From a virus: a stretch of DNA of 30,602 nucleotides. Each line of letters opens with the position of its first letter. Positions within the stretch are counted from its first letter, which is position 1. The notes under the pieces are model-generated. The model saw only the letters and a list, made by a program, of their open reading frames with translations. It was not told where the DNA came from and did no database searches. The position numbers were made by a program, and so were the translations under genes. The stretch is from positions 1 through 30,602 of IMG/VR virus record IMGVR_UViG_3300035689_000061, one strand, 5' to 3'. Shown here piece by piece: positions 8,401-19,577 of the stretch.

Positions 8401-9090
8401 CTAATGATATCTCTGCAATCCAGGTTGCCGGCCGTGATCGGGCCATAATGTTTCATCGCTCGTCGCGTGGCCCCACTCATGTTCACAAATAGTCTCGTCA
8501 TAGATTCTTTGCGGTTGCATGGGAAGCCACGGATTACAAAACCGGGCCGGCAAAATCAGGGCATCCGGGGCTAACTCATTCACGATTCGAGTCAACAATC
8601 GAGGACCCGTCACATAGTCGACGCCGCCCTTGACCGTTTTGATGCTTTCCGGAATCGCATCGATCACGGCACCGATCACCGGATTACCTGGGGCACAAGC
8701 CATAAACGCATTGCTTATTAATGTGCCGTCGACTTCGTAAGAAAGAATAAGATCATGATCATCGAATAATTCGGGTAAAGGGTTTATCGGCCGCATATCA
8801 CAATTCACATAAAGACCGCCGAATTGGTAAATCAACTCATATCCGGCGATATCCGCTTTCGTGACTTGGATAAGGCTTGCTTGCTTCGAATCACCTCGAC
8901 CAGGAATCCAACTCCAACCGCATTCATCGAAAGCTTCTTGATTCTCAAGCCTCGGCAAATCGGTTTCGTCGTAATCCTGCAAAACCCATTCCGGATTAAG
9001 CTCAATCCATTTTGCGGCATTCTCTTTATACCGATCCGGCATGATCCGGGGCCCGAACCATTGTCGATGGATCAGCTTGGGAATCGCCAC
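8401..9090 (-). CDS. Glycosyltransferase, DXD sugar-binding (GT32-like)
   Basis: This encodes 229 residues from a GTG at 9090. MAIPKLIHRQWFGP is the typical opening of GT32/Gly_transf_sug proteins (IPK.IH..W). The core KADIAGYELIYQFGGLYVNC is the family's acceptor/nucleotide-sugar block. The usual D-x-D appears as N-x-D (NCD), a conservative change whose effect on metal binding is unknown. Cytoplasmic GT32 enzymes move a sugar from a nucleotide donor to an acceptor. It is the last gene of the five-gene sugar cassette and overlaps the epimerase gene by 19 bases. A protein acceptor on the virion is plausible but not shown. Confidence 0.82.
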   Translation of the reverse strand: MAIPKLIHRQWFGPRIMPDRYKENAAKWIELNPEWVLQDYDETDLPRLENQEAFDECGWSWIPGRGDSKQASLIQVTKADIAGYELIYQFGGLYVNCDMRPINPLPELFDDHDLILSYEVDGTLISNAFMACAPGNPVIGAVIDAIPESIKTVKGGVDYVTGPRLLTRIVNELAPDALILPARFCNPWLPMQPQRIYDETICEHEWGHATSDETLWPDHGRQPGLQRYH

Positions 9091-10082
9091 GTTATGCCCT
9101 GATTATCCCGGAACCAATCGACCGTCACCCGGATTCCATCCTCGAGGGTAGTGAACCGTTCCGATTCGATGCCGACATTCCGCATGGTAGCCGGATCCGC
9201 CGCGACAACTGTTCCCAACAATTTAACGGCCCGACGAATATCAATTGGATTCAATTCCGGTACGGAATTCTGTACAGCTTCGGCGATTCGATCCACGACA
9301 TCGACGGATGAAACCGGGCCTCCGTGCGGTTCTCCCAATCGCATTGGTAGATCATCGATCGTTGCGGATGGGATTTCTTGCCGGATTTGTTCCGCTACTT
9401 GCCGCACCGAAACAGGCTCGAGATTTCCGATGTCGATCGGATGATTCGGAATCTGCCCATCCTTGAGAACCTCGAGTGTTTTCAAGAATGATTGGGCAAC
9501 ATCACGAACAAAAACGGCATCGGATATTTGCGTCCCACCGCCATAAAGCGGCATCGGAATATCCGATAATGCGGAACACACAAACGAAGGAACTATCTTT
9601 CGAACCTTGCTCGGACCGAACGGCGCCGGTGCCGACTGACGCGGGCCATAAGCATTCATCGGCCGAACGGCCGCAATAATCGAGCCCCGATCTTCCCGAT
9701 ACATTTTCACGAATTCTTCGCCACAAGCTTTCGTGATGCAATAGGTTCCGCGGCCGATCCCGGAATTCCCGACGGCCGCGTAAACGATTGGGATCCTGTA
9801 TCTATCCGCCGCCTCGAATACATTCAATGTGCCGAGAATATTTATGTTTGCTGCGGGAAGCGGATTATCAATCGTTTCCGCCGTTCCAAGCACGGCCGCT
9901 AAATGAATGATCCCGTCGACGTGGGCCGCGAATTCGTTAACGATCGTCGGATCCCGGACATCCCCAAGCAATCCCCCGCGGTGCTTGTGGTCAAGAATTA
10001 AGACTTCGTATCCGCGTGCTTCTGCTTCTTGGCGGATCCATGATCCGATGAATCCATGCCCGCCTGTGATCCCGATAATCAT
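9072..10082 (-). CDS. NAD-dependent nucleotide-sugar epimerase/dehydratase (extended SDR)
   Basis: This encodes 336 residues starting MIIGITGGHGFIGSW; the ATG overlaps the upstream stop (ATGA, 10079-10082). The dinucleotide motif T-G-G-x-G-F-I-G lies at residues 6-13. The catalytic pair Y114-x3-K118 is in GTYCITKACGEEF, and an acidic residue at the end of strand 2 (D31) suits NAD binding. The family converts nucleotide sugars by epimerisation or dehydration. The substrate cannot be read from the sequence. Sitting inside a run of glycosyltransferases, it most likely makes the donor sugar for them. Confidence 0.88.
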   Translation of the reverse strand: MIIGITGGHGFIGSWIRQEAEARGYEVLILDHKHRGGLLGDVRDPTIVNEFAAHVDGIIHLAAVLGTAETIDNPLPAANINILGTLNVFEAADRYRIPIVYAAVGNSGIGRGTYCITKACGEEFVKMYREDRGSIIAAVRPMNAYGPRQSAPAPFGPSKVRKIVPSFVCSALSDIPMPLYGGGTQISDAVFVRDVAQSFLKTLEVLKDGQIPNHPIDIGNLEPVSVRQVAEQIRQEIPSATIDDLPMRLGEPHGGPVSSVDVVDRIAEAVQNSVPELNPIDIRRAVKLLGTVVAADPATMRNVGIESERFTTLEDGIRVTVDWFRDNQGITWRFPS

Positions 10083-10708
10083 AATGACCGGATCTGTTCG
10101 TGAGCAATTGACGAATTTATTTTGTGACTTATCTGTTCCGGATGCACCGAATAAACATAGTCGACTCGGCCCGTGTGATCGAAGGTTGCTCCGGCTCGAG
10201 CTGCCCCAATCCAGAAAGCCCAATCATCGAAAAACAAATCTTGGAACCGATTATTTTCCCAAACGGTTTTCCGGAAAGGTGAGCATGATCCCATCGGATT
10301 ATTTTCTTTTTCCAGGATTCGTTCCGCCGTGACGGGCCGTGATGGAAACTGATTATCGCCAATCCGGTAACCGAAGTTAACGATATCTGCCGGATTCGAT
10401 TCAATGCCGTTCAAGGCATGAGGCAAAAGCCGATCATCGATATCAGCTTTAATAATCCATTCCGTATCCGTTATGCCGATCACGTCATTAACGTGAACCT
10501 GGGGATGGAATACATCCCCGCGATTCTTATAAACCCACGAAACGTTTACATATTCCTCGGCCGCCGATCGGATTTGATCCGGGATTCCATCATGAATCAC
10601 CGTTATCATGTGCGGTTTAGTTTCCAAACCGGCGAGAGCTTCCGACCATCCCAACACGAACCCGTAATATTTCGGGCCGAATACGGAAGAAACAATTCCG
10701 ATACTCAT
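10079..10708 (-). CDS. Glycosyltransferase family 2-like (GT-A fold)
   Basis: This encodes 209 residues, coupled to its neighbours by ATGA overlaps at both ends. The N-terminus MSIGIVSSVFGPKYYGFVLG and the ITVIHDGI strand fit a GT-A nucleotide-binding half. WIIKADIDDRLLP carries the D-x-D-D metal motif. Later FFDDWAFWIGAARAG resembles the ED-x-x-W acceptor/base motif. This is probably a cytoplasmic transferase in the virion-sugar cassette. It is short for GT2, so the C-terminal part is minimal. Confidence 0.8.
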   Translation of the reverse strand: MSIGIVSSVFGPKYYGFVLGWSEALAGLETKPHMITVIHDGIPDQIRSAAEEYVNVSWVYKNRGDVFHPQVHVNDVIGITDTEWIIKADIDDRLLPHALNGIESNPADIVNFGYRIGDNQFPSRPVTAERILEKENNPMGSCSPFRKTVWENNRFQDLFFDDWAFWIGAARAGATFDHTGRVDYVYSVHPEQISHKINSSIAHEQIRSL

Positions 10709-11442
10709 AGATACGACCAGAACTTAGGGGCCTGGGCCGCCATGACTTCCCAAAAATCCCCGGGATCCCGGCGGCCGGCATAGCCGTTCGTGTGAATCTT
10801 GCACCCGTACGCCTCGGCCTCAATCAAGGTTCGAGGGCATGAGTCGAAACCCTGCGGGAGAAACACGAACCATTCATGTTCGGTCATCGCTTGCAGCACA
10901 ATCGACCGGTCCACGTTCGACAATTCGGTTAGGTAGAAACCCTTTTCACGGGCCCACCGTCGAGCCGGAAGCAAACCTTTTTGAGCATGTTGCCGGGCCG
11001 CCCACAATGCTTCCTCCGTGCGTTCACCCTCGAGCTCCGGTAAATCGATATGGCCGTGACACCATTCCGATAACACCCCGAACCGTCGGGCCTCAAGCTC
11101 CGAATGGGCCTGGCTCATGGTGATGAACGGATCCGCGTGCTCGAAAAGTGTTCTTCGGGCCTCCGTCGGGAACTGTTCGTGATGCACCCACACGACCGGC
11201 TTAACTTCTCCTAGGCCTATCAGAGCTTCATCCGGGAGAAGATCCGTACCGGTAATGATTACCCGGTCGAAGTCGAAAGCCTGCCGCCATTCACCCGGCC
11301 CGATCACCTGGACATCGATCCCGGCGGGGGCCTGCCGGATCATGGCCGCATCTGTCATTTCTGCGCCGCCGACACCGCCCGGAAGTAGCCAATCTTCGGA
11401 ACGGCCCCTGGGCACATGATGGGTAAGCCACGCTACCTTCAC
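10705..11442 (-). CDS. Glycosyltransferase, GT4-like (short)
   Basis: This encodes 245 residues. I chose the GTG at 11442 because it overlaps the upstream stop as GTGA; longer readings extend back into the upstream gene. VKVAWLTHHVPRGRSEDW and GGVGGAEMTDAA are typical GT-B N-terminal elements. Near the C-terminus LPQGFDSCPRTLIEAEAYGC stands where GT4 enzymes have their E-x7-E donor-binding block. At 245 residues it is shorter than a usual GT4 enzyme (about 350-400), so it may be a compact variant. Confidence 0.78.
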   Translation of the reverse strand: MKVAWLTHHVPRGRSEDWLLPGGVGGAEMTDAAMIRQAPAGIDVQVIGPGEWRQAFDFDRVIITGTDLLPDEALIGLGEVKPVVWVHHEQFPTEARRTLFEHADPFITMSQAHSELEARRFGVLSEWCHGHIDLPELEGERTEEALWAARQHAQKGLLPARRWAREKGFYLTELSNVDRSIVLQAMTEHEWFVFLPQGFDSCPRTLIEAEAYGCKIHTNGYAGRRDPGDFWEVMAAQAPKFWSYL

Positions 11443-12650
11443 GGCAGATCCTCGAGCAGCGGCCGCCACATGTTTTCGTAAACCGTGTCGGCATCGTAGT
11501 TGTCGACAATGTGCCGGCGGCCCATCGTGGCCCGCTGCCCGCGCCTCTCATATGTTTCTTCGAGGGCTTTATATATTTCCGAGATTAGCGGGATTTGGAA
11601 CCAGGCTCCTTGTGTCGGATCCCAGGAAGGTTGCCCGGCAACCGCGACACCTTCACCGACTAGTTCCGGTTGGGCCGAGAAATTATTGACGATCACCGGG
11701 GTTTCACATGATTGAGCTTCGGCAACCGTGATCCCGAAACCCTCACCTAAAGTTGGGGCCAGAAGGCAATCCATCCCCGTATAACAGGCGGCAAGGGCAT
11801 CCGCCGGGAAACCTAACCGGTTCTGATATTGATTAACAAATTTTACTTTTTCTTCCGGGATCCCACATGCGGCAATCAGCGGATCCAGAGGAATCCCGCC
11901 CATCCCGCCGTACCGTTCCGTATGCATATACAGAACCGCATCATCGTGCTTTTCGGCAAACATGGCGAAGGCTAATAGTTGGGCATCAAAGGCTTTCCGT
12001 AAAGGAATTTGGCCTTTGTTAGCGTTGACGATCCCCACGACGAAAGCATCATCAGGGACACTCATCAATTGCCGCCCGGTTTTCGTGACTCCAAGGTCAT
12101 CAGTTACCGACGCGGTAGGTTTGAAAATATCGGTTTCGATTCCGTGCGGAATATAGGAATGCTCGAGCTTCGCTTTTGCCATTTGATCCGCGCCATATTT
12201 GCTCATAGCGACCGGATGAATATTCGGTTTCTGTAGAACCGTCAGAACCATTCCAGGGATCGGTAAATGATCGATCGGTGTCCAGGCAACCACCGGCATT
12301 TCATCCCACTTCGGATGTTTCAAAACCCACACATCGTAAAGCGTGAAAACGTGATGCCGGTGATTCGGATGCTGCCGTGACCAATCCACGAAATACGGAT
12401 GCACCATGTCTTGGGAATAAGCATCATAGCCGCGGGGCAAATGTTCGATGCCTTCCCAGCTACTCGAAGTTGCCTCGAGGCCGTAGTTACAGGCAACCGC
12501 GATATCGTGCCCATCCGCAAGCATTCGGGAAACTACTTGCTTAGTTTGCGTACCGTATCCGGTTTGTGCGAAAGCAGCATTCGAATACCAAATGCCGGCA
12601 ATCGGCGGTGTTCCGTTCCTTGCTCGTCTACGCCTCTCAGCGCGGTCCAC
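11439..12650 (-). CDS. Glycosyltransferase family 4 (GT-B fold)
   Basis: This encodes 403 residues from a GTG after GGAGGAAAC. The N-terminal domain begins with GIWYSNAAFAQTGYGTQTKQ. The donor domain contains GEGFGITVAEAQSCETPVIV, the E-x7-E motif of GT4 enzymes, and PHGIETDIFKP, a common GT-B linker. It is the first gene of the sugar cassette, directly after the capsid gene and its hairpin. Phage-encoded glycosylation of capsid or tail proteins has been reported for mycobacteriophages; a similar role here is inferred from position. Confidence 0.87.
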   Translation of the reverse strand: MDRAERRRRARNGTPPIAGIWYSNAAFAQTGYGTQTKQVVSRMLADGHDIAVACNYGLEATSSSWEGIEHLPRGYDAYSQDMVHPYFVDWSRQHPNHRHHVFTLYDVWVLKHPKWDEMPVVAWTPIDHLPIPGMVLTVLQKPNIHPVAMSKYGADQMAKAKLEHSYIPHGIETDIFKPTASVTDDLGVTKTGRQLMSVPDDAFVVGIVNANKGQIPLRKAFDAQLLAFAMFAEKHDDAVLYMHTERYGGMGGIPLDPLIAACGIPEEKVKFVNQYQNRLGFPADALAACYTGMDCLLAPTLGEGFGITVAEAQSCETPVIVNNFSAQPELVGEGVAVAGQPSWDPTQGAWFQIPLISEIYKALEETYERRGQRATMGRRHIVDNYDADTVYENMWRPLLEDLP

Positions 12651-12736: not shown

Positions 12737-13921
12737 TTAAGCAGCGTTACCGATGAAGTATTTCACGGCGTCGGCCTGGCCGAGGTCGCCCCACAGGCGG
12801 AGGGTAACCCGGAAGCCGATTTCGTCGCTCTCGAAGTAGGCATCGTCGCTTCGTGCGATTTCGATCCCGCCAACTTGACGAACATGGTATGAACCGAACC
12901 AGCCGAAAAGAACCGACTTTGCGCCGAGTGCAGTCGCCGCGACGTCGGGGTTTTCGATGATCGGGAAGCCCATGAAAACGTCCGGAGCCCCCACGGTAGC
13001 GGCCGGCACATACAGGTAATTACCTGCAGTATCCTTGAGCTTCCGGAGAGCACCCATCGAGGTGCGACGCATCATGAACCCGGCCCCGAGACGGACGTAA
13101 GCACCGTCAACGGAATGCGCGAGATCAATCAGATTATCGGCAGAAAACGCACCTGAGACCGCCGTCGATCCCGTGATACCGCTGCCGGCCGCCGTCACAA
13201 TTCCGTTAGCCTCGTTTGTGCCGGTTCCGACCGTCAGCAAATTATTTGCCTTGATCCCCACGGACGTTCCCAGGGTACGGGCAAGGTACGACGGAATATC
13301 GATCCCGGAATCCGTGAGAATCTCTCGGGAAACGATCGTGAGGGCCGCCACCTTCTGGGCCTTCAAGGTCAGAGAAGTGAACGTAGGATCGAGGGCAACA
13401 ATCGTTGTACCCTCGTTAATCGCGGTGCCGAGAGGCCGAGTCGACTCCACCGGAACCTTGATGTCCTCACCGGTCGCGGTGTTGAGCAGAGTCACAACGG
13501 ACCCGTCGAGCATCGGTCCGACCGTGACCAATTTCTCTTGAAGGACATCATAAAATGTCTGTGGGAGAAGGCTTGAATCGTCGGACTTGTTAAGGTCACG
13601 ACGCTCGAAGGTAGCGGAACGAATCTCCCCGGAAACCAGCTTCCGGAGGGTATCGAAGTCCGAGCCACGGCGGGCCGCCGCAACCTCACGAACCTCGGGG
13701 GCATCGATCATCGAAGCTTCGATATCCTTCGCCCGCATCTCTGCCGCACGAAGATCCTCGATCTTCTGTGAACGTGCGTCGATGTCCTCGTTAATGCGGT
13801 CGTACTGTGCTTGCTCCTCTGCGGTGAGATCACGCTTCTCGGCGGCAGCAGCATCGAGCAAACTCTTAGCCGCGTGCCAAGCCTCCTGACGCGCCTCCAC
13901 CTGACGCTTCAAATATTCCAT
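12737..13921 (-). CDS. HK97-fold major capsid protein
   Basis: This encodes 394 residues with an AGGAGAA ribosome site. Residues 1 to about 85 are helical and charged (delta domain, e.g. LTAEEQAQYDRINEDIDARS), the scaffold-like part normally removed by the prohead protease. The HK97 fold follows, with LLPQTFYDVLQEKLVTVGPM, KVAALTIVSREILTDS in the P-domain and a GFPIIENPDV segment near the C-terminus. Cleavage probably lies between residues 85 and 115, but I cannot place the exact site. The gene follows the structured RNA stretch and has its own strong ribosome site, as expected for the most abundant virion protein. Confidence 0.95.
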   Translation of the reverse strand: MEYLKRQVEARQEAWHAAKSLLDAAAAEKRDLTAEEQAQYDRINEDIDARSQKIEDLRAAEMRAKDIEASMIDAPEVREVAAARRGSDFDTLRKLVSGEIRSATFERRDLNKSDDSSLLPQTFYDVLQEKLVTVGPMLDGSVVTLLNTATGEDIKVPVESTRPLGTAINEGTTIVALDPTFTSLTLKAQKVAALTIVSREILTDSGIDIPSYLARTLGTSVGIKANNLLTVGTGTNEANGIVTAAGSGITGSTAVSGAFSADNLIDLAHSVDGAYVRLGAGFMMRRTSMGALRKLKDTAGNYLYVPAATVGAPDVFMGFPIIENPDVAATALGAKSVLFGWFGSYHVRQVGGIEIARSDDAYFESDEIGFRVTLRLWGDLGQADAVKYFIGNAA

Positions 13922-14145: not shown

Positions 14146-14838
14146 CTAGATAGCTTTCGCCAATAGGTCGATTTGCTTCATCAGCAAACTAACCGGGATC
14201 TTTGCCACCGGTTCATCGACACCGGCCGCACGGTCGACAACCTTACGAAGGATGCCGGCCTGATCTTCGTTCAATTCGCCGGCCTCGAGTGCGGAGATAG
14301 CATCCGCGAGAGCCGTCGGATCCGTTTCCGTACGCTTCGCAATCACCCGAAGATTACGAACCGAAGCGGTCGTGGATGGATAAGCCGGCACCGCGGTGAC
14401 CACGCTTACTTCATGGAGACGCACCTCGAGTAGTGTTCTCTCACCGCCGTCCGATGACCAAGAATCCTTCACGGTTGAGAAACCGAAACTCATGCCGGTG
14501 ATATCTCCCCTTGAAACCAAAGCGCGGATATCGCGGCCGGCCGTCGTATCGGGTAGATCGATCTCCACATAACCGCCCTCGGCACGGTCCTCGATCCGCA
14601 GAGTCTTAGCCCGCGTCGATCCGAGCAGCATCGTATCGTCGTGATTGACGTAAGCCCGAATATCATTCTTCGACTTGAGGGTCCGGGTGAATGCGCCTGG
14701 CGCGATACGCTCCGTGAACGGTAGCGGCAGCGAAGGTTCGTTGTATCGCCATGCGTAGCCGGCGAATGTCATCCCGTCACCTTCGGACCGGACTTCGCAA
14801 ACCGTCGCCTCGAAGGTACGGATTTCGACGTTACTCAT
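14146..14838 (-). CDS. Prohead protease made from an internal start
   Basis: The ATG at 14838 (M487 of the long form) follows GAAAGGAACATA, a good ribosome site inside the larger gene. The 230-residue product starts MSNVEIRTFEATVCEVRSEG. It holds the whole HK97-family protease: a histidine in AYVNHDD, serine in GMSFGF and an LHEVSVV strand, with the usual family length of about 180-230. A long and a short form in the same frame resembles nested protease/scaffold genes such as lambda C/Nu3. The internal start is inferred from the site and the domain border; both forms may be made. Confidence 0.7.
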   Translation of the reverse strand: MSNVEIRTFEATVCEVRSEGDGMTFAGYAWRYNEPSLPLPFTERIAPGAFTRTLKSKNDIRAYVNHDDTMLLGSTRAKTLRIEDRAEGGYVEIDLPDTTAGRDIRALVSRGDITGMSFGFSTVKDSWSSDGGERTLLEVRLHEVSVVTAVPAYPSTTASVRNLRVIAKRTETDPTALADAISALEAGELNEDQAGILRKVVDRAAGVDEPVAKIPVSLLMKQIDLLAKAI

Positions 14839-16296
14839 TATGTTCCTTTCGCCGCGGATCATCTCGGCAGTACGTTCCAGCCATGCCCGGGCCGGTTCGG
14901 GATCCAAAGGATCGATTCCCCACAAGTAATGTGCGACAGCGCCGGCACCGGGCCAGCCGTCATCGTCGGGATCGGAATTAGACGGCGCCTCAAGGTCGAC
15001 AGCGTGGCGGGCCGCCCAAGCATTAGCCCGGATCACTTTGTCGTCCGACATTTCCCCATCCGCCATTAAACGGGCCTCCCGGATTGTTCGGTCGGTGAGG
15101 CCGTCACCTCCGAAGCCTTCCGCCCGAAGCTCGAGCCCGCGGGCCGCGGCCGCCTGGATATATTCCGGCGGGGTTTGCTGCCGGATCTCGATACCGCGGA
15201 TTTCCTCCGGGTCGAGGGTAGGAATCCCGAGCTCCTGGAAAACCGCAATATTGTCCGGATCATTATCTATCGCTAGAAGCACGTTATATGTTTCCAGGAT
15301 TGTTTCCGCTACGGATTTCTTCCACGCCGGGGTTTCTTCGTTCGAATCTTTCATGAAAAGGAAATCGAAATCGATGTCGAAGGATTCCAGCTGATCGAGG
15401 GTTTCCGATCGTTCTGATTCTGGTCTCGCCGTCACGATGAAAATTTCGGCATCCTGAGAATCAAGGTAATCGATTAATTCGAGATTCGGTCGGCCTGCCG
15501 TTATTAGGGTGCCGTCGATGTCGACAATGATTGCCGGTTCCCCATCGATATTTCGTTTCGCGGTTCTCGTCGACTTTGGATGATCCTCCGGGAGAAGATC
15601 ATTATCGGTGACGTAGTTAGGGTTTTCCGGTGAACCGGTTCGAAGCAAGAAAAGAAAAGAATTAACTCGGGCCATAGCCCAAGCCCCGCGAGTCTGGCCC
15701 GGCCGGTGGCTAGTCGAATAAGCCCCGGCACCGCGGCGGTATACGGCGGCCAGCATCCCGAATGTTGCCCGGGTCCAATCCGGCCGGTCATCCTCCGCCA
15801 TTTGATCGTTATGTTCGGAGACTTTATTTCGAAGGGCCGTTTCGGTTGCCTCCGATAATTCGATATCCCCACCCGGGCCGCCGCCGGATCCCGGTTCGTT
15901 TACGTCACTACCAGAAATCTGGTCAGCTTCCGGGGCCGGTGTATCCGCTTGCCGTTCCTCACCCTGCCAAGCATTGCAATAGTAGGCACCGGAAACGAAA
16001 GCTTCCCACCTCGAGCACCACGCTAAATCCTCTTGTATTTGTGTCTCGTCATAGAAAACACAATTGCCGCAAGCCCGACCATCCGGGACATCATCCGCTA
16101 AAGCCGGCCGATAGTTCGATGGGAGCTCACGGTAGGATCCGCCCGGTTCCATATCCTCGGCAATCGAGATAGCGACCATTTGATCGATTGCGTCTTGCTG
16201 CGTTGTATGACACCCGATTACTTCGCCGTCCTCTTTCACGACAGCGTAACCCGGGCATCCTTCGGCCTCACCTTCACCGGTAACGAAGTAAGGCAT
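14146..16296 (-). CDS. Multidomain head protein: Cys-rich, HAD phosphatase-like and HK97 prohead protease
   Basis: This encodes 716 residues with the start overlapping the upstream stop (TAATG). Visible parts, in order: residues 1-45, a small YFVTGEGEAEGCPGYAVV domain. At 76-111, a Cys-rich module (C76, C79, C94, C107). At 148-240, a helical block with AVYRRGAGAYSTSHRPGQ, seen in other phage head proteins. At 253-370, a HAD-type domain with DIDGT (259-263), a T/R in IVTARPE, K in AWKKSV and DNDPDN (344-349). At 388-480, a second helical block. From 487, the prohead protease with NHDD and GMSFGF. Fusing a phosphatase-like domain to the maturation protease is unusual. The phosphatase target is unknown. 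The N-terminal part may be co-packaged as a scaffold-like extension. Confidence 0.88.
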   Translation of the reverse strand: MPYFVTGEGEAEGCPGYAVVKEDGEVIGCHTTQQDAIDQMVAISIAEDMEPGGSYRELPSNYRPALADDVPDGRACGNCVFYDETQIQEDLAWCSRWEAFVSGAYYCNAWQGEERQADTPAPEADQISGSDVNEPGSGGGPGGDIELSEATETALRNKVSEHNDQMAEDDRPDWTRATFGMLAAVYRRGAGAYSTSHRPGQTRGAWAMARVNSFLFLLRTGSPENPNYVTDNDLLPEDHPKSTRTAKRNIDGEPAIIVDIDGTLITAGRPNLELIDYLDSQDAEIFIVTARPESERSETLDQLESFDIDFDFLFMKDSNEETPAWKKSVAETILETYNVLLAIDNDPDNIAVFQELGIPTLDPEEIRGIEIRQQTPPEYIQAAAARGLELRAEGFGGDGLTDRTIREARLMADGEMSDDKVIRANAWAARHAVDLEAPSNSDPDDDGWPGAGAVAHYLWGIDPLDPEPARAWLERTAEMIRGERNIMSNVEIRTFEATVCEVRSEGDGMTFAGYAWRYNEPSLPLPFTERIAPGAFTRTLKSKNDIRAYVNHDDTMLLGSTRAKTLRIEDRAEGGYVEIDLPDTTAGRDIRALVSRGDITGMSFGFSTVKDSWSSDGGERTLLEVRLHEVSVVTAVPAYPSTTASVRNLRVIAKRTETDPTALADAISALEAGELNEDQAGILRKVVDRAAGVDEPVAKIPVSLLMKQIDLLAKAI

Positions 16297-16560: not shown

Positions 16561-17919
16561 TCACTCCACCGGATACGCTGCTGAGGGATTCAAAGGATCG
16601 AAGGCGGCCGCCTGCTGCAGCTGCACCGAAGGCAAACCGGTATGGTCAATTTGCGGCAGGCCCATAGCCTGCAAAACCTGTTCCGGCGTGAACCCGGAAG
16701 TAATCAAACGGACCGCATTCTGGACCCGCTTTTCTGTTTCAACAATATTTGCGGCCGCAAGATTCACGTTAGCAAGGCTCACCCGGTATTGATCCCCGTC
16801 CTCAACCGGCGGTAAATCCTCGAGCCGGTGAATATCATTAATCGACAGGAACCCGGCCTGCATCGCAATCGAATAGGCCGAGAATCGATCTTGAAGGCTT
16901 GCCCGCAAAAGCGAATCCACATTGATCCGGAGAAAAGCATCACCCGGGAGAAGCTTTGTGTAGGCCGCCTCAATCTTCGAGATATACGGCAGCAGCGTAT
17001 AGGTGACAAATTGCCGGGAAGATTCCTCCACCGACGCATACGACATAGCGCCTTGCCGGGTCGACTGCAGCATATGAACCGGGATGCGGAAGATTCTCGC
17101 TACTTCCTCCACCGCGAATTCACGGGACTCGAGGGCCTGGGCGTCCGTCGGATCTACCGAAGTTTGAGTGTATTTCGCGCCGGCGGAAAGGATCCCGGGT
17201 CGATGGGATTTCCTCCAGCCCTTGTGTCCGGCCTCCCAGGAATCCTGCAAAGTCTGGGCCTGTTCCTGGGTAAGCTCATACGGCACTTCGATGATGCCGG
17301 CCGTTGTGCTGCCGGATCCGAAAAACGTAGCCGCGAATTCCTCAAGTGCCTTCGTTAAACCAAGGGTTTCCCGAAGCTCCGTGATTCGTGAAGTGCCACG
17401 AAGTTTCCCCGGTTGCCGTAGCTCCGTGATATGAACTACGTCCTCCTCCGGGAGAATGAACCGGCCGTTATCGATCCGGAATTCGATCCGCATCGTTTCC
17501 CGGTTACGGACAACCTCGACCCGGCGGGGATCCATCACATGAAGGGCGATAATGTCACCGCGGGAATCACGAATGATCCGGCTAAACGAATTACCGTCCA
17601 CAAGCAAAGAAACCAAAAGGGCCTGGTAATGGTCGGATCGTTGCATCGATGGATCCGGTTCCGGGCTATCCACCCACACGGGCCGCGGGCGATATGGCCG
17701 CCGCTGCCCATCATCCCGGATAAACGTATCCATCGGCATAGTCGAAATCGAATCCGAAATCAAACGGATAGCGGCATACACCGGGCCGATCGTGAACGAA
17801 TTCTCTTGAGTGATCCGGACACCGGAACGTGTCCCGGCCGGGACATCGGCACCCATCTCGAAAAGCTTCTGGAAAGTAATAGCCCGCTTCTCTGGAGAAG
17901 AAAACAAATTGTTAAGCAT
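16561..17919 (-). CDS. Portal protein, HK97 family
   Basis: This encodes 452 residues. Typical HK97-type portal blocks are visible. These are SFTIGPVYAAIRLISDSIST near residue 45, LLVDGNSFSRIIRDSRGDI, the long-helix region with IFRIPVHMLQSTRQGAMSYA (about 280-300) and EESSRQFVTYTLLPYISKIE. The dodecameric portal ring is the channel for DNA entry and the docking site for terminase. The gene overlaps the membrane protein gene by 8 bases. Length is normal for the family. Confidence 0.95.
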   Translation of the reverse strand: MLNNLFSSPEKRAITFQKLFEMGADVPAGTRSGVRITQENSFTIGPVYAAIRLISDSISTMPMDTFIRDDGQRRPYRPRPVWVDSPEPDPSMQRSDHYQALLVSLLVDGNSFSRIIRDSRGDIIALHVMDPRRVEVVRNRETMRIEFRIDNGRFILPEEDVVHITELRQPGKLRGTSRITELRETLGLTKALEEFAATFFGSGSTTAGIIEVPYELTQEQAQTLQDSWEAGHKGWRKSHRPGILSAGAKYTQTSVDPTDAQALESREFAVEEVARIFRIPVHMLQSTRQGAMSYASVEESSRQFVTYTLLPYISKIEAAYTKLLPGDAFLRINVDSLLRASLQDRFSAYSIAMQAGFLSINDIHRLEDLPPVEDGDQYRVSLANVNLAAANIVETEKRVQNAVRLITSGFTPEQVLQAMGLPQIDHTGLPSVQLQQAAAFDPLNPSAAYPVE

Positions 17920-18062: not shown

Positions 18063-19577
18063 TCATGAAAAGAACATAGGAACAGACGGTTTCGGTGCTT
18101 CCCGGTACATCGTTGCCCGGTCGAAGGCACCCACGGCACAAACCGCGCCGTCGATTTTGCGTAAACTCCAACGGTTTTCCTTAACGATCCTCGGCCCTAA
18201 CCGGTCCGTTTTCACGACCGCGTTAGCGATATGCCGTGATAATTGCGGATCGTGATCGTGGGATAAACCGTTACTCATGACAGCATCGAAAAACTTTGCA
18301 CAACTAGGAACCATTCGGGCCGGTGAGGAAGTCGGATATTCCACGATCGGAATACCGGACTCCGCTAGAATCTGCATCGACCGTTGCCACCGGAACGGAT
18401 CGAAGGGCACTTCCACGACCCGGAATTTCTTGCAAGCTTCCATCACGGCGGTTTCAACTTCGGATATTTCTACCCGCCATTCGTCCGAATCTTCCGGTTG
18501 CTTTTCCCATGCGGCAACCTTGAATATTCGCGGTTTCGGTTCCACCGTACAACCAGCGATAAATGTTGAGTCACCGGAAAAAGATCCGTCCACGAAAAGC
18601 ACGACGGGAATATCAGGGCCGGGAATATCGCACCGGTCGAGGGAATCCCAGGCACCGGCAGGAAGCCAAGCCGTCGAGGATGCAACCCATTGATTCATTC
18701 GCTTCGTGCGAAACTCATTCTCCGGAGTCCGACGAACCGCCGAATCGAAATCCTCCGGATCCTGCAAAGTCCCGAAACCAGGATTCGCAATCATCCACGA
18801 TTTCGGATCCCGGTGATCCGCATCCGGTCCGGCCTGCCACCAGGCCATGAAAAAACTAGGATCATCCTGCTCACCGGCGGCAATCCTCGAGCCATATTGA
18901 AAGAGCCGGTAACACACGGAATCCTGACCGGCAGAATCCGTACGAACCCCGGCTGTGGTGATCCCCAAAACCAGGGCATCGACGCGGGCCGCCTGTGCCA
19001 GGCTCATTACATTCCAAAGATCATCATTCGGGGCAGCATGCAACTCGTCGTAAATAACCAGGGTCGGGGATAAGCCTTCCTTCGTGAAAGCTTCACTCGA
19101 CAGCACCCGGTATACCGAACCGGTTTGAACATTCTCGATAGCGTCCCGGTAAACCTTCGTAACCTCGACCAGCTCCGGGGACCGTTCTACCATTTGACGG
19201 GCCGAACCGAAAACGATCCGGGCCTGATCCCGATCAGCTGCACATGAATAAATCTCGCCACCGTTCGGGCCAAGCATCAAACCATAAAGACCGATACCCG
19301 AACCCAGGGCCGATTTACCATTCTTTCGCGGCAAACCAATAATGCCCGTCCGGTGCCGAAGCTTTCCATCTGGCCGCCGAGCAAACAAAGCACCCAAGAC
19401 CTTTTTCTGCCACGGCAACAAGAGCAACGGATCACCGGCATGACCACCCACCGAATCTTTCACTTGGGGGCAAAGCTGCTCAATGAAATCCACAACGTGG
19501 CCGCCGGAGCCCCGGCGAATATCGGCCACCGGAACCGGAGTGATAATCGCCGGCGGCCACCCTTTAACGGCAGGCAT
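18063..19577 (-). CDS. terL: Terminase large subunit
   Basis: This encodes 504 residues. The ATPase half has Walker A GLPRKNGKS at 81-89, Walker B LVIYDE at 173-178 and the motif III region GITTAG at 205-210. The nuclease half has the acidic residue D330 in VVLFVDGSFSGDST and later VPFDPFRWQ and an HDHDPQLSRH stretch. The enzyme drives DNA into the prohead and cuts the concatemer. The gene begins six bases after the small subunit stop, with no strong ribosome site visible, so coupled translation is likely. Its type resembles TerL of HK97-like phages with P27 small subunits. Confidence 0.96.
   Translation of the reverse strand: MPAVKGWPPAIITPVPVADIRRGSGGHVVDFIEQLCPQVKDSVGGHAGDPLLLLPWQKKVLGALFARRPDGKLRHRTGIIGLPRKNGKSALGSGIGLYGLMLGPNGGEIYSCAADRDQARIVFGSARQMVERSPELVEVTKVYRDAIENVQTGSVYRVLSSEAFTKEGLSPTLVIYDELHAAPNDDLWNVMSLAQAARVDALVLGITTAGVRTDSAGQDSVCYRLFQYGSRIAAGEQDDPSFFMAWWQAGPDADHRDPKSWMIANPGFGTLQDPEDFDSAVRRTPENEFRTKRMNQWVASSTAWLPAGAWDSLDRCDIPGPDIPVVLFVDGSFSGDSTFIAGCTVEPKPRIFKVAAWEKQPEDSDEWRVEISEVETAVMEACKKFRVVEVPFDPFRWQRSMQILAESGIPIVEYPTSSPARMVPSCAKFFDAVMSNGLSHDHDPQLSRHIANAVVKTDRLGPRIVKENRWSLRKIDGAVCAVGAFDRATMYREAPKPSVPMFFS

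Follow-up and report, generated by a model that had tools for sequence, protein, structure and literature searches.

Why should a phage join a phosphatase-like domain to the protease of its head, and does that domain still work as an enzyme? These questions are raised by one open reading frame in a 30,602-nucleotide stretch of DNA (here called the window) from the IMG/VR record IMGVR_UViG_3300035689_000061, which belongs to a virus of water bacteria. A sequence-only reading, which named no strand, had described a HAD-type phosphatase domain fused in frame to a complete HK97-type prohead protease, and our analysis bears this out. Read on the minus strand from 16296 to 14146, the ORF encodes 716 amino acids in the order LEAD-CYS-CBLK-HAD-EBLK-S78-C-terminal tail, so that five N-terminal modules, HAD among them, precede a complete S78 prohead protease in one frame. 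An assembly artefact or a mis-joining of genes is scarcely credible as the source of this protein. The frame is open in the window and in contig L002 (99.98% identical), and all 716 codons are open in an independent contig, L003, whose DNA is 96.4% identical; neither a stop nor a frameshift splits the genes. The same in-frame fusion is also found in dozens of divergent contigs, and structure models of UniProt 'Prohead protease' entries match the HAD domain as well. These independent occurrences refute a frameshift or mis-assembly.

The identity of the protease is clear from matches to Pfam Peptidase_S78 (E=6.3e-41, residues 501-647; 140.7 bits against a cut-off of 21) and TIGR01543 (4.6e-30; 104.7 bits against a cut-off of 59). 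The S78 domain covers residues 487-655 (14332..14838; all features of the window given here are on the minus strand) and starts at an internal ATG (M487). It is followed by a C-terminal helical tail that is common to relatives (residues 656-716; 14149..14331). The gene is located between those of the portal protein (16561..17919; Pfam Phage_portal 1.7e-79) and an HK97-type major capsid protein (12737..13921; Phage_capsid 5.8e-51), and the large terminase gene is at 18063..19577 (TerL_ATPase 4.6e-24). The catalytic-domain HMM and this position between portal and HK97-fold capsid genes identify an HK97-family prohead protease.

The protein begins with LEAD (residues 1-56; 16129..16296), a predicted short beta-hairpin and helix with two Cys, modelled by AlphaFold2 (AF2) at a pLDDT of about 82-88 across residues 1-40. 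Its HMM is common to our locus set, and mapping of modules by HMM places LEAD at the N terminus of most relatives. The Cys-rich module of the earlier description, CYS (residues 58-114; 15955..16125), has a C-x2-C...C...C pattern whose four Cys are invariant in nine relatives. Seven of the nine match Pfam HIPIP, all weakly (best 9e-4), and the top PDB match is the HiPIP 1hpi (weak, E=0.084). The module therefore looks like a HiPIP-type [4Fe-4S] domain; if so, a prohead protease would be an unusual carrier for an iron-sulphur module. The two helical blocks noticed earlier are also present. CBLK (residues 144-244; 15565..15867) is DUF5824-like (Pfam DUF5824 5.2e-7) and shifts its position among relatives, and EBLK (residues 375-484; 14845..15174) is predicted as confident helices by AF2. 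A PDB sequence search with EBLK returned no relative, and the match to phrog_80 begins at residue 373. The full-length AF2 model consists of separate domains joined by low-confidence linkers, and its pTM of 0.29 means that it is trustworthy per domain only.

The HAD module occupies residues of about 250-372 (15181..15549). Its motifs are at the places first proposed for them: DIDGT at 259-263, VTARP at 288-292, the motif III lysine K326 and IDNDPDN at 343-349, the last containing D344-N345. With the whole protein as query, Pfam Acid_phosphat_B was matched above the cut-off (5.1e-7) and HAD_PNKP below it (3.7e-4); with the HAD domain alone, HAD_PNKP was just above the cut-off (3e-6). The PHROG for polynucleotide kinase matched residues 252-371 at 4e-16. 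AF2 predicted a compact capless HAD fold (pLDDT 91, pTM 0.84), for which the best Foldseek match in the PDB was the T4 Pnkp 3'-phosphatase (5uj0; E 4.4e-7, TM 0.75), followed by Pnkp1 (4xrp; TM 0.79); the PDB HAD matches had a probability of 1.00. A profile of 40 head-linked HADs found the same two proteins in the PDB (Pnkp1 8e-10, T4 Pnkp 3'-phosphatase 2e-7). Chance motif matches are rejected by these HMM, AF2 and Foldseek results, and the domain shows what is expected of a HAD superfamily member of the phosphatase type, namely a Rossmannoid fold, a DxDGT motif I, a motif III Lys and an acidic motif IV. In a viral structure library, five of the nine best matches were UniProt 'Prohead protease' entries from uncultured Caudovirales, which supports the fusion independently.

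The kinship with phage PNK phosphatases that had been suggested for the domain stands as a relationship and fails as a membership. PNK phosphatases and head-linked HADs share the capless fold, DxDGT, an Arg after motif II and the motif III Lys, and no other group gave a better structural or sequence match. In contrast to T4 Pnkp and phage PNK, however, the head-linked HADs have no kinase domain, and their motif IV is [DE]N[DN]xxxR where the PNK domains compared have DDR, the second Asp being replaced by Asn. Head-linked HADs mostly have Ser or Thr at the position, four residues ahead of the motif III Lys, where PNK domains carry Asp, and they lack the segment that follows motif I (PYD... in the PNK domains). 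The DDR motif IV and motif III Asp residues are essential in T4 Pnkp. A tree also separates the head-linked clade from PNK and other HADs (SH-aLRT 97); the clade includes S78-fused domains, a portal-linked one (L152), an XkdF-linked one (L163) and two solo proteins (L147 and L154). We therefore reject direct membership in the PNKP 3'-phosphatases; by motifs and tree, the head-linked HADs are a sister group of that family. Since two typical PNKP residues are changed, the substrate may differ. Among the HAD matches listed for isolates (INPHARED), the genes were polynucleotide kinases or hypothetical or unannotated, none being annotated as a head gene. A scan of cellular genomes, made with one peptide pattern and so not exhaustive, gave 16 relatives of the HAD, and the stretch fetched for each contained neither S78 nor LEAD nor EBLK.

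Is the fused HAD an enzyme or a structural part? Most of the 40 fused, non-redundant HADs compared share 28-51% identity with that of the window. Across this set, D259, D261, T263, R291 and K326 are invariant (as is L303), N345 and T299 are nearly so, and positions 344 and 345 are D/E and N/D, respectively. Median pairwise dN/dS is 0.13 for HAD and 0.12 for S78. Because the catalytic residues do not vary and the domain is constrained as strongly as the protease, we favour a working enzyme over a structural relic, and the HAD module is probably a small, active, capless phosphatase. On the contrary view, the modules at the N terminus together form a scaffold or an aid to assembly, and the HAD fold, comparable to a scaffolding or delta domain, serves for binding or spacing in the prohead with no need of catalysis. 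We consider this unlikely, given the invariant catalytic residues of such divergent copies. It is consistent with the fact that every module precedes the protease while number and order vary, and with the window's Ile350, at a site occupied by Arg in 63 of the 67 fused HADs. Foldseek also matches the LNS2 domain (Nir2), a HAD type whose structure was solved with bound phosphatidic acid, which makes a binding role possible.

Further evidence comes from the recurrence of the fusion. IMG/VR was scanned with the EBLK-S78 part and with HAD, and modules were then mapped by HMM. A search for the same fusion in related phages had been proposed earlier; HAD and S78 share one ORF in at least 65 distinct IMG/VR contigs, in many module orders, and uniqueness to the window's phage is rejected. 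HAD may immediately follow LEAD, stand behind CBLK or EBLK, or precede CYS/CBLK. The EBLK-S78 scan, which was not selected for HAD, supplied the best 80 of at least 577 loci, that is, the relatives nearest the window; of the 64 proteins whose N terminus is complete, 27 carry HAD, a proportion that describes these near relatives and is no global frequency. In two contigs (L139 and L140) array and protease are two consecutive ORFs, and in two others (L151 and L153) LEAD-HAD is a gene of its own between the protease and an apparent capsid gene. The loci L020-L034 have LEAD at the head of a protease fused in one ORF with an apparent major capsid protein. The array of a close relative contains another module (L011:4196-4336; Hva1_TUDOR 1.3e-6, residues 67-112), so the five modules described are not the full set.

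The closest comparison is with eight contigs (L005-L010, L012 and L013) that lack HAD only and have flanking DNA 93-96% identical to the window. Junction alignment and blastn breakpoints (15171/15569) show that a stretch of 397 nt (15172..15568) is missing from them and is replaced by about 28 nt. Phages so alike, some having the module and others lacking it, amount to a natural experiment. On the protease-domain tree, the presence of HAD requires 13 changes, of which at least 10 are forced by well-supported branches. HAD is one module of a shuffled set and has often been gained and lost, and in environmental phages the prohead protease, commonly regarded as no more than a maturation enzyme, offers its N terminus as a platform for such shuffling. 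A required scaffold is odd in this light, because array length varies widely between near-identical phages and HAD can be missing with no other change. High turnover and clean module borders would also fit passenger modules that have no selected function and spread by recombination at gene borders; the dN/dS of about 0.13 and the invariant active-site residues disfavour this, and we regard it as very improbable. Instead, the turnover of HAD suggests a conditional benefit, for example in countering a nuclease or a nucleotide-signal defence of the host, and not a role in assembly on which every phage depends.

Where would such an enzyme act? Judged by sequence, members of the same HAD clade also sit on three other head proteins: a portal protein, a protease of the XkdF type and one that is effector-like. 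The portal protein (L152:2435-4636; portal 1e-26) has EBLK and HAD at its C terminus. The XkdF-type protein (L163:2549-4846; Peptidase_S78_2, 3.3e-11) has an EBLK-like block, and HAD precedes its protease. In L134, TerL and portal are followed, up to the contig end (3337-7029), by a LEAD-HAD-EBLK ORF, a protein with a HEWGH zincin-like motif and a Zeta-toxin-like kinase (3.2e-17); an LPGxHxQxxHG-like motif is common to these three proteins, and an S78 gene was not found in this contig. The C-terminal region of the LEAD-HAD-EBLK ORF matches ART-PolyVal below threshold (Pfam E=0.063) and nothing relevant in the PDB, which makes an ART reading weak. The two solo members of the clade (L147:1082-1486 and L154:3995-4399) lie between glycosyltransferase genes, near ribonucleotide reductase and outside the head cassette.

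These solo members are what one would expect if HAD acted in the cytoplasm of the infected cell, in RNA or DNA end repair or nucleotide supply, with fusion to a late, abundant protein merely setting its expression level. The closest relatives of the domain, the phage PNK phosphatases, are indeed cytoplasmic repair enzymes, and LEAD-HAD is a separate gene in L151 and L153. However, that gene still lies between the protease and the apparent capsid gene, and repeated fusion to three unrelated head proteins (S78, portal and XkdF) makes a cytoplasmic role hard to sustain; we think it improbable. That a phosphatase clade tied to head proteins occurs on three unrelated carriers is of interest in itself.

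The earlier reading had also predicted that the protease is made alone from an internal start at 14838. A Shine-Dalgarno-like AAGGA (14844..14848) precedes this ATG by 5 nt, and starts at the junction are conserved beyond chance in relatives. Each of the 24 protease clusters contains an in-frame ATG or GTG within the 20-codon junction window, as do 56% of the controls (p=8e-7); Shine-Dalgarno matches of 4 nt or more occur in 17 of the 24, compared with 16% of the controls (p=4e-9). The clusters were formed at 80% identity and treated as independent, which is true only in part. Some clades have no Shine-Dalgarno at the junction. The pattern indicates that the internal start is likely used, with the caveat that a relic of an ancestral gene start would look identical.

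With these observations in mind, our preferred reading, which we hold at about an even chance, is a prohead protease with a swappable N-terminal module array whose HAD phosphatase acts in the head or in the next host. The long form would assemble with the portal and capsid protein and bring its modules inside the prohead, while the internal start at 14838 would give extra protease that is free of the array. During maturation, the protease may release the array by cleavage, and the freed phosphatase could then act within the head or be carried into the next host. By analogy with PNKP phosphatases, which remove 3'-phosphates, nucleic-acid ends or nucleotides would be the likely class of substrate. 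HAD is probably a cargo or tool loaded into the head, because dozens of related uncultured viruses carry it as a swappable part; if the module is packaged, this would be a compact way of loading an enzyme into a capsid. A more specific possibility, which we put forward tentatively and think rather doubtful, is a head-specialised capless HAD clade, detachable from protease or portal, that is injected with the DNA and strips 3'-phosphates or the phosphates of defence signals at entry. If true, the virion would carry a counter-defence enzyme that phages gain and drop by swapping modules.

Compared with known HK97-family prohead proteases (Peptidase_S78, TIGR01543, PHROG 80), the window protein has the same complete catalytic domain and the standard TerS-TerL-portal-protease-MCP cassette, but it adds a long modular N-terminal array. 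Isolate relatives among the matches listed align mainly with the protease part, and searches with whole fusion proteins gave no INPHARED record with a coverage of 80% or more. The exception in alignment and the nearest isolate is Pontimonas phage phiPsal1 (MG835450), whose prohead protease reads LEAD-CYS-EBLK-S78 in the same cassette order; it lacks CBLK and HAD, whereas the window has both. Glycosyltransferase and NAD-dependent epimerase genes directly follow the capsid gene of the window (8401-12650), and glycosyltransferases in this position are common to the window and phiPsal1. The combination had been thought new. In the literature searched, which covered few subscription journals, no paper describing a HAD-prohead protease fusion was found; the combination is not a one-off, however, and the fused domain is already in the sequence databases under UniProt 'Prohead protease' entries, unremarked.

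The broader parallel is with polyvalent proteins (Iyer et al. 2017; PMC5512222), in which an assemblin-like peptidase is always C-terminal and embedded peptidases are proposed to release the other domains. The main text of that paper mentions no HAD (as a domain), haloacid, PNKP, polynucleotide kinase or phosphatase (PMC5512222). Both systems have a multidomain head-associated protein with mobile enzymatic modules and a C-terminal maturation peptidase, and the HAD carrier of L134, with its sub-threshold ART-PolyVal match, adjoins a Zeta-toxin-like gene. In the window and its relatives, multiple domains are rearranged within one head-associated protein that ends in S78, which we take to belong to the assemblin-like fold. 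Unlike polyvalent proteins, the window protein is a prohead protease of ordinary type apart from its small modules and the internal start of the protease. On balance, we read its HAD domain as a new module in the phage 'polyvalent', head-borne polyproteins.
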